Below, piece after piece: positions 161 through 61,174 of a stretch of 64,000 nucleotides of DNA; the first letter of the stretch is position 1, and every line of letters begins with the position of its first letter. The position numbers were made by a program, and so were the translations under genes. Source of the DNA: Treponema sp. (GTDB lineage: Bacteria > Spirochaetota > Spirochaetia > Treponematales > Breznakiellaceae); assembly GCA_009777335.1 (NCBI GenBank), contig WRMC01000002.1, positions 124,001 through 188,000 of the forward strand, in the 5' to 3' direction. A model generated the notes under the pieces. It saw nothing but the letters and a program-made list of their open reading frames with translations, had not been told where the DNA came from and did no database searches.

Positions 161-170
161 GGTAAATTTG

Positions 171-180
171 TAGGTTTGAT
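171..180 (+). repeat. Left boundary motif of repeat locus 1
   Basis: TAGGTTTGAT at 171-180 is the same sequence that starts the C unit at 577 and is inverted at the end of the locus (854-863). It therefore looks like the outer left boundary of a roughly 690-bp composite (171-863). The bases between it and unit A1 include GGCTC, which can pair with GAGCC near 382-386. Confidence 0.4.
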
Positions 181-195
181 AATGGCTCCTTAATC

Positions 196-400
196 CAAGA
201 CCTCATTATTCCTTCACCGCTGGACAAAAACATGCCCCTAGCGGCTCCAGCGGCTCTGACTACTCAATCCTGTAATCTAATGAACCAAATCTTTCTCTAT
301 TGATTGAGTAGTCAGACCGAAATCGCCGCCAGGAGCATTTTTTGCTCCAGCTGAGCAAGTAATGCGCGGTTGGACTTAGAAGAGCCTTTAATAATCAATC
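196..400 (+). repeat. Interspersed repeat unit A, copy A1
   Basis: This is one of four copies of an intergenic unit; the others start at 4690, 17074 (inverted) and 34821. Shared blocks are an AAGACCTC start, CGCTGGACAAAAACATG, a GCGGC/GCCGC outer stem (241-245 with 325-329), the hairpin TTGCTC-CAGCT-GAGCAA, and an AGAAGAGCC end. The centre is variable but palindromic: CTGACTACTCAATC (256-269) is perfectly complementary to 302-315. No ORF is carried. A folded RNA or a MITE-like DNA element both fit. Confidence 0.8.
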
Positions 401-576
401 TTCCAAGTGTGATGGGGGAAGAGAAATTTTGATAGATACATGACCAGAGTGTCAGTCACTCTGTGCTGGGCTCTATAGAGCTCCAGTGAAGTGATCATCA
501 TCCTGGGCTATCACCATACGCAGTAATCATCTCTTACCCATAGGTGTAGAGTAAATATGCTTTACCACCAGGTAAT
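401..576. other. Linker between units A1 and C1
   Basis: There is no gene here. A TCTTCC/GGGAAGA hairpin follows unit A, then a CAGAGTG/CACTCTG hairpin and a small GCTCTATAGAGC palindrome. The sequence TAATCATCTCTTACCCAT is shared with locus 2 (near 5008-5025). Hairpins at this position differ in sequence between loci, as they do inside unit A. Confidence 0.5.
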
Positions 577-863
577 TAGGTTTGATCTCGCCACACGAGT
601 GGGCAAACACTGGGAGGGGTGGGAGTTGCTTGGGGCTAGGAATATCTGGGAATTCTCCGCCGGAGGAGACCTCGGACGAAGCAGAATAGGATATAATGAG
701 AAAATCTCCGGCATCCAGTATGTGCGAGGGAAGCTGAACGCAATGATAGAATATGAGAAACTGGGTGCCGGGGGCTCCGTAGGCGGGTTCATCTCAATTC
801 CTAGACCTGAGCGACACCCACCCCTCATGTGGTTAGAAAAAATAAGTGGCGAGATCAAACCTA
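577..863 (+). repeat. Interspersed repeat unit C, copy C1, with an 18-bp perfect inverted end
   Basis: The ends are perfectly inverted: TAGGTTTGATCTCGCCAC at 577-594 against 846-863. Inside is the conserved C core (about 616-830), also found at 16783, 35110 and 60883. Recognisable blocks are AGGGGTGGG, CTAGGAATATCTGGG, CTCCGCCGGAG (a hairpin), AGCAGAATAGGAT, CCAGTATGTGCGA, AAACTGGGTGCCGGGGG and CTCAATTCCTAG. The blocks CTAGGAAT and ATTCCTAG near the two sides can pair, as can the outer G-rich and C-rich ends. An open frame across the unit (557-955) is not conserved in the other copies, so I do not call a gene. Confidence 0.8.
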
Positions 864-1247
864 CCTCCTTACCCTCCTCCTATTCTCCTGCAGCCTTATC
901 GCATAAGCCTTATAGCTGTCCTGTTCGAGCAGTTTGCAATACCTTCGAGGGATAGGCTTTCCCAGATAAGCAGCCAGACGGTGTATCAGTTTAGGGTAGG
1001 TAATGGCCCCATTCCGTGAAAAAGACGCCGCCACATCATAGTTAAACATCGACGAGCCCCCATTTGACCCGTGGTCTGCTACCCTAATGTGAATGGCTCG
1101 GGGATGTGCCCGGGTGCCGGCAAGTATTTTTATGTAGACCGAGTTTGAATAGTCAGAAATATTTGAGAAGGTATTATAACCCCAATAATGAATAATATTT
1201 ATAAGCTCCGCACCAATGCGTTTTGTGTTAAAAACATAACGATTCAT
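861..1247 (-). CDS. Unknown small protein, 128 aa
   Basis: The start is ATG at 1245-1247, preceded by a strong GGAGG site; an upstream in-frame ATG at 1325 has no such site. The protein is basic at the C-terminus (RRRVRR). It has a central stretch IHIRVADHGS preceded by a VYIKI strand and followed by YDVA and a Y..LI..LA helix, which suggests a small alpha/beta domain. I do not recognise its family. The stop codon lies on the last three bases of the C1 inverted end, so the repeat may have set the present C-terminus. The next gene upstream on the same strand is a 49-residue acidic protein. Confidence 0.6.
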   Translation of the reverse strand: MNRYVFNTKRIGAELINIIHYWGYNTFSNISDYSNSVYIKILAGTRAHPRAIHIRVADHGSNGGSSMFNYDVAASFSRNGAITYPKLIHRLAAYLGKPIPRRYCKLLEQDSYKAYAIRLQENRRRVRR

Positions 1248-4615: not shown

Positions 4616-4689
4616 GTAGATGAGTATACATGTGTAGACTTAATTGGATGAAATTATTCCAAAGGTTAAAAATTATTGTTCCATCAAGC

Positions 4690-4910
4690 CCAAGACCTCT
4701 ATACTCCTTCACCGCTGGACAAAAACATGGCCCCCGCGGCTCCAGTGGCATGACTACACAGTTTGCATATTGGCAGTGTAAAATTAATTGTGTAGTCAAG
4801 CCAAAATCGCCGCAGGGACCATTTTTTGCTCCAGCTGAGCAAGCACTGAGCGGTTGGACTGAGAAGAGCCTTTAATCAATCCTCCTCCAAGCGAGGTAGG
4901 TGGGGAAGAG
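4690..4910 (+). repeat. Interspersed repeat unit A, copy A2
   Basis: The conserved A blocks are present: CAAGACCTC, CACCGCTGGACAAAAACATG, GCGGC/GCCGC, TTGCTCCAGCTGAGCAAG and AGAAGAGCC. The inner stem is TGGCATGACTACACA (4746-4760) against TGTGTAGTCAAGCCA (4789-4803), 14 pairs with one A-A mismatch. It is related to the stem of A1 but differs at several paired positions. Confidence 0.8.
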
Positions 4911-5097
4911 TGATGAAAAAGGCAGACATAGGTGTCATATTTCTGAGGGCGGAACCCCTAGGGGTTTAGTGGGGCCATCAGTACCCTGGGGTATCATCAT
5001 ACACAGTTAATCATCTCTTACCCATGTATGGGGAGGGGATAGAGATGATGTACCGCGTGTGGTGATATCTTCCATGGTGTTACATTGGTTATACCAT
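4911..5097. other. Spacer of repeat locus 2
   Basis: No gene is seen. It contains a perfect palindrome AACCCCTAGGGGTT near 4956-4969, a GACA/TGTC hairpin just after unit A2, and the TAATCATCTCTTACCCAT block shared with locus 1. Locus 2 has no C unit. Confidence 0.45.
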
Positions 5098-5289
5098 GCA
5101 GATGGTTCTCGATGATCATCTTCTATCGAACCACCCGTATTGTACTGTGCTGGTGCAGCAAAAATCTCCGGCGGCGACTTCGGCTGCTGAATTGATCTAT
5201 ACATACTAGAATGGGAGTATGGGATGCAGGCCGCTAGGAGCCGCAGGGGATTGTTTGCTGACCAGCGATGGGGGATATGGTCTGTCTTC
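5098..5289 (-). repeat. Interspersed repeat unit B, copy B1 (inverted)
   Basis: It is nearly identical, in opposite orientation, to 60601-60792; by eye only a handful of bases differ over about 180. Read on the minus strand it shares the A-unit plan: CGCTGGTCA, CCCCTGCGGCTCC, an inner GGC.TGC/GCA.GCC stem, GTCGCCGCCGGAG and a TGCTG/CAGCA hairpin. Confidence 0.8.
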
Positions 5290-5429
5290 ATAATAGATAC
5301 ATCATCACGGATTGTTTACTGTTTAGCGCTAGCTAGATGTGCTGGCAGGTCTTAGTGGCTATATAATCCCACCTTTATTTATCTTCCTATATCTATTATC
5401 ATATACCCATCTAAACTAAGGAGTCACAC

Positions 5430-16682: not shown

Positions 16683-16734
16683 GCGGGTTTGTTAAGATGA
16701 TGAAAGGGTAGGAATTAAAATGACACATTCGATC

Positions 16735-16773
16735 AAAAGACCTCAGGTGCAGTTCCCCGCTGGACAGGAAACA
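16735..16773. repeat. Terminal inverted repeat of repeat locus 3, left end
   Basis: This 39-base stretch (AAAAGACCTCAG...GACAGGAAACA) is an imperfect inverted copy of 17226-17261, the outer end of unit A3. The two define a 527-bp element, 16735-17261, with ends of about 36 bp. Confidence 0.7.
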
Positions 16774-16782
16774 ATCTGCAAG

Positions 16783-17024
16783 AGGGGTGGGGGCCGCTCA
16801 GGTCTAGGAATTGAGATGAACCCGCCTACGGAGCCCCCGGCACCCAGTTTCTCATATTCTATCATTGCGTTCAGCTTCCCTCGCACATACTGGGTACCGG
16901 AGCTTACTTCATTATCCTATTCTGCATAACTCGCGGTCTCCTCCGGCGGAGAATTCCCAGATATTCCTAGCCCCAAGCGACCCCCACCCCTCCCTGTGTT
17001 TGTTTACTTAGGTGGCAAGATCGA
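16783..17024 (-). repeat. Interspersed repeat unit C, copy C3 (inverted)
   Basis: The core 16783-16993 closely matches C1 over most of its length on the minus strand. The flank at 17011-17024 is a variant of the GATCTCGCCAC end, but its inverted partner is missing; the A-type terminal repeat (16735-16773) takes its place. Confidence 0.8.
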
Positions 17025-17073
17025 CTTTATGCCTACACGCTTCATCACTCTTCCCCCACGATAACATTTGTAG

Positions 17074-17261
17074 GATTGATTATTAGAGGCTCTTCTCAGT
17101 CCAACCGCTCGGTGCTTGCTCAGCTGGAGCAAAAAATGCTCCTGGCGGCGACATTGGCAGGAAAAAAGTGCTAATTACTGGAATACAGCTATAGGACTTT
17201 CCTGCCACCGGAGCCGCTAGGGGCATGTTTTTGTCCAGCGGTGGACTGCGCATGAGGTCTT
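17074..17261 (-). repeat. Interspersed repeat unit A, copy A3 (inverted)
   Basis: All A blocks are present on the minus strand. The inner stem is a different sequence from A1 and A2: TGGCAGGAAA (17198-17207 read on minus) pairs with TTTCCTGCCA (17155-17164 read on minus), 10 pairs. GTCCA-CCGC-TGGAC forms a further perfect hairpin at the outer end. Confidence 0.8.
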
Positions 17262-17303
17262 GGTCTTAGATTGAACTGTAGTGGCATAATTAATTCTACA
17301 AAA

Positions 17304-17405
17304 GCCCCTGCCAGGGGGACCACGGCGCAGGGGCTAACTGCTTGCCGTTGCTTCCTTCCGGACCTGGCGGAGTTGGGCGGCAGCTCCTCGCATGGTTCCT
17401 GACAG
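17304..17405 (-). ncRNA. ffs: Signal recognition particle RNA (4.5S type)
   Basis: The minus strand has the invariant domain IV loop GTCCGGAAGGAAGCAAC (about 17346-17365), flanked by CTGCCGCC and CGGCAAGCAG. The ends GTCAGGAACCATG and CGTGGTCCCCCTGGC pair to close a rod of about 100 nt. With Ffh it targets ribosomes making membrane proteins to FtsY. The 3' part AGCCCCTGC...GCAGGGGCTTTT also forms an intrinsic terminator. Ends are estimates. Confidence 0.93.
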
Positions 17406-34797: not shown

Positions 34798-34820
34798 GAG
34801 ATAGATAGGCACCTTAAGTC

Positions 34821-35005
34821 TAAGACCTCATGCGCAGTTCACCGCTGGACAAAAACATGCCCCTAGCGACTCCTGTGGCAGGGAAGCCTTTTTTCTATAA
34901 TCGTCTATGTTGTATAGCACTTTTGTCCTGCCAATGTCGTCGCCAGGAGCATTTTTTGCTCCAGCTGAGCAAGCACTGAGCGATTAGACTGAGAAGAGCC
35001 TTAAA
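34821..35005 (+). repeat. Interspersed repeat unit A, copy A4
   Basis: The A blocks are present. The outer stem reads GCGAC (34866-34870) and GTCGC (34939-34943), where every other copy has GCGGC and GCCGC: both sides changed and pairing is kept. The inner stem is TGGCAGG (34876-34882) with CCTGCCA (34927-34933), of the A3 type. Confidence 0.8.
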
Positions 35006-35109
35006 TTATCCATCCTCCAAGTGTGATCGGGGGGAAGATAAATAACGAAGTTTTTCGACAAAGGTGACAGACACCATGGGCTGAGGTGATAGGTTAAGCC
35101 TTGTATATT
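35006..35109. other. Linker between units A4 and C4
   Basis: No gene is seen. It is shorter than the linker of locus 1 but keeps the CCTCC...GGGGGG hairpin directly after A and a GGTG/CACC hairpin. Confidence 0.4.
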
Positions 35110-35460
35110 GGCTTGATCTCGCCGCCTAAGGGGCCTAACACGAGAGGGGTGGGGGTCGCTGTGGGCTAGGTAATATCGGCGCATACATGCGCAGAATTCC
35201 CCGCTGGAACCCCCACCGAGGCTCGGACGCTCTATGAGCGTAGGAGCCGAGGTTCCCCTCTGGAAGGAGACCGCGAGAAAAGCAGAATAGGATAATGAAG
35301 GAATCTCCGGCATCCAGTATGTGCGAAGAAAGCTGAACGCAGCAACTTAAGACAAGAAACTGGGTGCCGGGGGCTCCGTAGGCGGGTTCATCTCAATTCC
35401 TAGACCATGGCGGCACCCACCCCTTTTGTGGTTGTTTAATATAGGTGGCGAGATCAAACC
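35110..35460 (+). repeat. Interspersed repeat unit C, copy C4, longest form
   Basis: The inverted ends GGCTTGATCTCGCCGCC (35110-35126) and 35444-35460 pair with one mismatch and one G-T. Relative to C1 the hairpin CTCCGCCGGAG is replaced at the same site by a much longer stem (GAACC, GGCTC and ACGCTC with their complements, about 35205-35258), and a GCGCAT/ATGCGC hairpin is added just before it. Confidence 0.75.
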
Positions 35461-60549: not shown

Positions 60550-60600
60550 AGATGAGATTATAACATAATTTTTCCAGAATATATATAACAGAATCTAATC

Positions 60601-60792
60601 GAAGACAGACCATATCCCCCATCGCTGGTCAGCAAACAATCCCCTGCGGCTCCTAGCGGCCTGCATCCCATACTCCCTGTCTAGTATGTATAGAACAATT
60701 CAGCAGCCGAAGTCGCCGCCGGAGATTTTTGCTGCACCAGCACAGTACAATACGGGTGGTTCGATAGAAGATGATCATCGTAGACCACCTGT
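60601..60792 (+). repeat. Interspersed repeat unit B, copy B2
   Basis: It is nearly identical to the inverted copy at 5098-5289. It lies where unit A lies in the other loci, directly upstream of unit C5. Confidence 0.8.
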
Positions 60793-60882
60793 AAGGTATA
60801 GCCGATGAAGTATCCATATTACCCATAAAATGGGGGAGAGATGATTAAAACGATAATAACCCGCCAGGTTAAGCATACATGG

Positions 60883-61095
60883 GAGGGGTGGGGGTCGCTT
60901 GGGGCTAGGAATATCTGGGAATTCTCCGCTGGAGGAGACCGCGGGTAAAGCAGAATAGGATAATGAGGTTATCTCCGGCATCCAGTATGTGCGAGAAAAG
61001 CTGAACGCAATGTTGGTAGCCTAGAAACTGGGTGCCGGGGGCTCCGTAGGCGGGTTCATCTCAATTCCTAGACCTGAGCGGCCCCCACCCCTCCT
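60883..61095 (+). repeat. Interspersed repeat unit C, copy C5
   Basis: The core of unit C is present, with CTCCGCTGGAG for the variable hairpin and pairing outer GGGGTGGGGG/CCCCCACCCC ends. The long TTGATCTCGCCAC flanks of C1 and C4 are absent. Confidence 0.8.
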
Positions 61096-61130
61096 GTCGA
61101 TGGTATAAAATGCGGTTTTTTTTTCTTACC

Positions 61131-61163
61131 TGTCCAGCAATGAAGGAATATTGAGGTCTTAGA
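61131..61163. repeat. A-type terminal inverted repeat, right end of locus 5
   Basis: TGTCCAGCAATGAAGGAATA... read in reverse matches the outer end of unit A1 (196-226). It closes locus 5 as 16735-16773 closes locus 3. Confidence 0.6.
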
Positions 61164-61174
61164 TATCTTATTTA

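Follow-up and report, generated by a model that had tools for sequence, protein, structure and literature searches.

REP and REPIN sequences are dispersed bacterial palindromes that occur as inverted pairs, have no coding capacity and are associated with RAYT transposases. BOX elements of Streptococcus are intergenic repeats built from modules, of which the inner ones vary, and their RNA is predicted to fold stably. ERIC/IRU, Correia/NEMIS, RUP, RPE, RU-2 and RU-3 are bacterial intergenic repeats of MITE-like character (PMC2229807). Whether the folds of bacterial repeats are selected or are a by-product of palindromic DNA is an old question, and a family whose diverged copies in a single genome number more than 50 provides a direct test of selected folds. 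The asymmetry between G.U and A.C mismatches tells selection on a single strand from maintenance of a double-stranded palindrome, and a strand-bias test of this kind is applicable to the ERIC, BOX and CIR families.

The element described here, from a Treponema sp. genome, resembles REP and REPIN sequences in being palindromic, dispersed, inversely paired and non-coding, but its units are much larger and no Y1/RAYT transposase was found in its 77%-complete genome. Like BOX elements it is modular, with variable inner modules and a stable predicted fold; it differs from them in the number, length and mirrored layout of its modules. With ERIC/IRU, Correia/NEMIS, RUP, RPE, RU-2 and RU-3 it shares a non-coding, dispersed, intergenic character, inverted-repeat ends that often lie near TA, and transcripts for which long stem-loops are predicted (PMC2229807). 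Whereas those repeats are 100-200 bp long, this element is about 600-700 bp long and is a mosaic of interchangeable modules that includes two structured modules of mirrored polarity. The CIR elements of Caulobacter and Brucella likewise consist of two inverted-repeat arms and a linker (PMC2229807), but they are small and carry a GANTC motif, while each arm here is a hairpin of 120-150 nt or a structured module of 275 nt. No sequence relation to any known family was found, and no description of the element was found in open papers.

Layout and distribution of the element

The hairpin under study (hp1) lies in a window of 64 kb, by which we mean the whole stretch of DNA that was analysed, and is one module of a mosaic intergenic element with imperfect inverted-repeat ends (Table 1). 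TAGGNTTGAT opens the complete copies and ATCAANCCTA closes them. Read from one end, they contain a hairpin of type hp1, hp2 or hp3, the conserved tail, the middle with GACAAAGGTGTCAGACACC and, last, the second module of about 275 bp or else a hairpin in mirrored orientation. Hairpins hp2 and hp3 are homologous to hp1, with other outer arms on one common architecture.

Table 1. Positions of the elements and their parts in the window
Feature	Position	Strand	Remarks
Left element end (AAGACCTCATGCGCAGTTCACC)	34798..34843	-	Pairs with GGTTGGATTGAG-type sequence across hp1; terminal repeat degenerate in this copy
Hairpin hp1 (GCTGGA...TCCAGC)	34844..34965	- (favoured strand)	Long conserved stem, GA/GA tandem-GA internal loop, interchangeable inner hairpin
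Left arm of the 5-bp stem	34866..34870	-	GCGAC on the plus strand
Right arm of the 5-bp stem	34939..34943	-	GTCGC on the plus strand
Conserved tail between hp1 and the middle (TGAGCAAGCACTGAGCGATTAGACTGAGAAGAGCC...GGGGGAAGAT)	34966..35045	-	
Middle palindromic motif GACAAAGGTGACAGACACC	35057..35075		Flanking modules are read outward from this motif
Second structured module, inverted-repeat ends GGCTTGATCTCGCC...GGCGAGATCAAACC	35110..35460	+ (favoured, outward)	
Small hairpin (GGAACCCCCACCGAGGCTC...GAGCCGAGGTTCCCCTCTGGA) inside the second module	35206..35264		Also nested in hp1 and hp2 stems elsewhere
Complete element	168..873	+	hp1 (215-356) and second module (579-862)
Element with two facing hairpins	4640..5370	+	hp1 (4714-4835) and hp2 (5149-5266); ends approximate
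Element between the SRP RNA gene (17306-17404) and dnaX	16708..17299	-	Contains hp1 and second module; relatives have an empty site
Element with hp2 and second module	60597..61165	-	hp2 (60624-60741) and second module (60877-61092); ends approximate

The genome assembly comprises 2.16 Mb in 28 contigs and is 77% complete. A DNA search found 51 matching places in it, and 37 hp1 copies were collected and oriented. Under strict filters, a covariance model (R1) built from 33 copies gave 58 matches, of which about 55 are strong; laxer filters, with matches on the opposite strand counted, gave 94. Most short-loop hp1 copies score 113-126 bits on the favoured strand; among the matches listed, the opposite strand scores 40-53 bits. 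The same model found no match in 58 relatives, three of which belong to the same genus.

The gap from the SRP RNA gene to dnaX gives evidence of insertion: it measures 635 nt, of which 592 nt are element. The corresponding gap is 36 and 42 nt in two genomes of the same genus, 40-66 nt in three further relatives, and 183 nt of unrelated sequence in a sixth. The dispersed copies carry no coding gene, and the open reading frames that overlap them are short and inconsistent. Terminal inverted repeats are present in most complete copies and are degenerate in the window copy. In a check for target-site duplications, TA was found at most element ends, inseparable from the inverted repeat. The element is thus inserted, dispersed, mosaic and, among the genomes searched, restricted to this species.

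Copies show no bias of orientation relative to neighbouring genes, and a general 5' or 3' UTR role is rejected as a rule because this orientation is balanced. Proteins of the Y1, DDE_Tnp_1, DDE_3 and TnpB types were not found in the 77%-complete genome, nor were pairs of element ends flanking a transposase gene; the absence of the searched transposase types is weak evidence since the genome is incomplete. A reverse transcriptase open reading frame of 349 aa (C9:110069-112481; copies and genes elsewhere in the genome are given by contig and position) lies downstream of a small open reading frame with a domain of the sulfatase-modifying type and is probably part of a diversity-generating retroelement. 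It was rejected as a partner of the element, being located elsewhere with no R1 match nearby. A second reverse-transcriptase fragment, which resembles an animal LINE, occupies the start of a contig (C18:1-750) and is possibly an assembly chimaera or host contamination.

Searches of Rfam 15 with the window and the element at relaxed E-values returned nothing above the gathering score for the element, and the low-score matches were dismissed as terminator-like chance matches. A 17-base pattern gave 34 single matches in unrelated genomes among 85,000 genomes, about the number expected by chance. The element contains no sigma-70-like promoter.

Covariation in the hairpin stem

The initial annotation called attention to GCGAC paired with GTCGC in the window copy, in place of the GCGGC/GCCGC of most copies. 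These sequences are as described, and the arms are paired in the minimum-energy folds of both strands (z -3.9 and -4.6). The pairs do not form an outer stem as had been supposed, but the inner end of a longer stem, which has about 26 pairs and extends outward by way of GCTGGA...TCCAGC. On the minus strand this stem reads GCTGGA-G-CAAAAAATGCTCCTGGCGAC...GTCGCTAGGGGCATG-TTTTTGTCCAGC, with the five pairs in question innermost. Inside them come an internal loop and then a variable inner hairpin. Every aligned copy, read on the favoured strand, carries GA on each side of this loop (GCGGC-GA... / ...GA-GCCGC), like tandem sheared G.A motifs.

The 5-bp stem was tallied in 36 non-nested hp1 copies from the genome, read on the plus strand. 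The commonest form is GCGGC/GCCGC (27 copies). The double change GCGAC/GTCGC is shared by four copies (the window copy, C2:46796, C6:99544 and C13:54827) and is therefore not unique to the window copy, while one copy (C1:106519) is changed on one side only, to GCGAC/GCCGC, which leaves a G.U wobble on the minus strand. A second double change, at another pair of the stem, gives ACGGC/GCCGT in one copy; the remaining forms are TCGGC/GCCGC (two copies) and TCGGC/GCCGT (one copy). A third double change, GCGGT/ACCGC, comes from a homologous hairpin type, which also has one A.C mismatch, so that three different pairs within this stem show double changes. In the alignment, the exact pair first noted (columns 26-105) is GC in 27 cases, AU in four and GU in one on the minus strand; the count of double against single changes is thus four to one, with no unpaired case.

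In a tree of 15 copies, three of the four double-change copies group together (support 94/94) and the fourth stands apart, and most forks are unsupported. Two changes suffice to explain the four copies on this weak tree, and the double change is therefore counted as one or two events. Taken alone, it is modest evidence for selected pairing.

Stronger evidence comes from the hairpin family as a whole. In an alignment of 33 copies of hp1 and hp2, with 30 pairs scored, standard pairs occupy 97.2% of cells, versus 86.7% in shuffled alignments. Both sides have changed at 13 of the 30 pairs, in 100 cells that are not independent events, as copies share ancestry and recombine modules; shuffles give 27.6 +/- 5.1 such cells, and none of 500 reaches the observed number. 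When one arm is slid by 1-3 columns, the count falls to 0-18 double-change cells. Covariation thus exceeds both the shuffled and the slid controls, as is expected of a functional structured RNA. More diverged copies replace CAAAAA/TTTTTG with other complementary pairs such as AAGTGAA/TTCACTT. Many combinations of inner and outer hairpin variants exist, yet each outer arm is always matched to its partner. A crossing pairing of CTCCTG with CAGGAG was dropped as an alternative because other copies fail to keep it.

Across 38 hp1-like copies read on the minus strand, 908 cells are Watson-Crick pairs, 71 are G.U, nine are other combinations and none is A.C. The many one-sided, unpaired changes that would have spoken against selection do not occur, as non-pairing cells number only nine among 988. 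The earlier claim that pairing is selected therefore stands for the hairpin family, by virtue of the 13 double-change pairs, the few one-sided breaks and the strand bias described below, and not on the strength of the window copy, where one or two events are at issue.

Strand polarity and explanations of the fold

The favoured strand folds better than its complement in 36 of 37 hp1, 10 of 12 hp2 and all six hp3 copies, and when flanks are included it is the better folder in 36 of 36 hp1 copies. For the second module, all 17 copies fold better on the outward strand. In every case examined, it is the favoured strand that points outward from the element middle.

Complementary arms fold on both strands of DNA, and a G.T mismatch on one strand is an A.C mismatch on the other. 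Every copy was therefore folded without G.U pairs, which avoids circularity, and single mismatches within Watson-Crick stems were counted. Over all modules, the favoured strand has 34 distinct G.T contexts and seven A.C contexts (p = 2.5e-5, an approximate value, as distinct contexts are not fully independent events), and the same folding of the other strand gives the mirror image. Correction of one arm by the other at the DNA level has no strand preference, so this bias argues for selection on one strand of given polarity. Statistically, then, the folding of one strand, the minus strand in the case of the window hp1, is kept by natural selection, either as RNA or as single-stranded DNA, which would give a similar G.T bias.

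The explanation that we consider fairly probable is that the stem belongs to a species-restricted, non-coding, MITE-like element whose modules are selected as a folded strand, most simply RNA. The modules would be oriented with the favoured strand outward from the element middle, and this strand would be transcribed and work as a structured RNA, which is the simplest account of selection on one strand. The G-C to A-T replacement would then be a compensatory change by way of a G.U wobble, of which C1:106519 may be a surviving copy. The fold probably aids the spread of the element, or else protects or processes transcripts that contain it. Counting against this explanation, neither a sigma-70-like promoter nor an Rfam match was found for the element, and the 77%-complete genome yielded no mobilising enzyme of the types sought. 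A more tentative proposal, to which we give a rather low probability, is that divergent transcription from the middle of each element yields two structured RNAs. In that event modules would be swapped between copies as matched pairs of arms that keep the fold, and the selected product would be the pair of folded RNAs and not a protein.

The main rival with respect to the molecule is a folded strand of DNA that recombination or transposition would use as a substrate, in the manner of attC sites or the ends of IS200/IS605. DNA also tolerates G.T wobbles, the empty site supports mobility, and the favoured strand of each half is the one with its 3' end at the element end. However, the ends of IS200/IS605 fold on one common strand, whereas the two halves here are in mirrored orientation, and the element is present in both orientations inside a single region of 64 kb. 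Inspection by eye revealed no attC-type core sites, and neither a Y1 transposase nor a TnpB-type protein was found in the 77%-complete genome. On balance, a DNA substrate seems unlikely.

The main rival with respect to the covariation is that the arms of a quasi-palindrome are kept complementary during replication by template switching or arm-to-arm conversion, without selection on the fold. The outer arms of hp1, hp2 and hp3 do differ block by block, with both sides affected, which is the pattern expected from a template switch or an exchange of modules, and the element centre and tail are palindromic as well. This process is strand-symmetric, however, and predicts equal numbers of G.T and A.C mismatches, in contrast to the 34 and seven contexts counted. 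It is also at odds with the half-step intermediate and with the wobbles at columns 18-113 and 22-109, which remain uncorrected in most copies. It is already disfavoured, and we judge it improbable in comparison with selection on a folded strand.

That the double change is an unconstrained, neutral coincidence copied to four places is very improbable: the four copies are related, three of them closely enough to group on the tree, but independent double changes exist at two or more further pairs of the 5-bp stem, and in the test of the whole structure no shuffle out of 500 came up to the observed value, which refutes the strong form of this reading.

Other repeated modules

The second module folds strongly (z -8.3, stronger than hp1) and in the window copy carries a nested 59-base hairpin. 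It has no Rfam match and may be a novel candidate structured RNA that deserves a study of its own. Modules of this kind with 16-bp inverted-repeat ends occur at a dozen or more additional places in the genome, as pairs of TTGATCTCGCCAC about 262-275 bp apart, and they are present also where no hp1 was fetched nearby.

Two other repeats recur within elements. A further hairpin repeat, AACAGGACACTTTGCATGTTTT...AAAACATGC...GTCCTGTT, is found in mid-element in the right flanks of C1:181279, C1:183585, C1:116503, C12:76505 and C1:235320. The small hairpin (GGAACCCCCACCGA...TCGGTTCCCCTCTGG) is nested in the stems of other modules, at the window position listed in Table 1 and at C12:24115-24308, C11:47165-47357 and C6:99183-99347.
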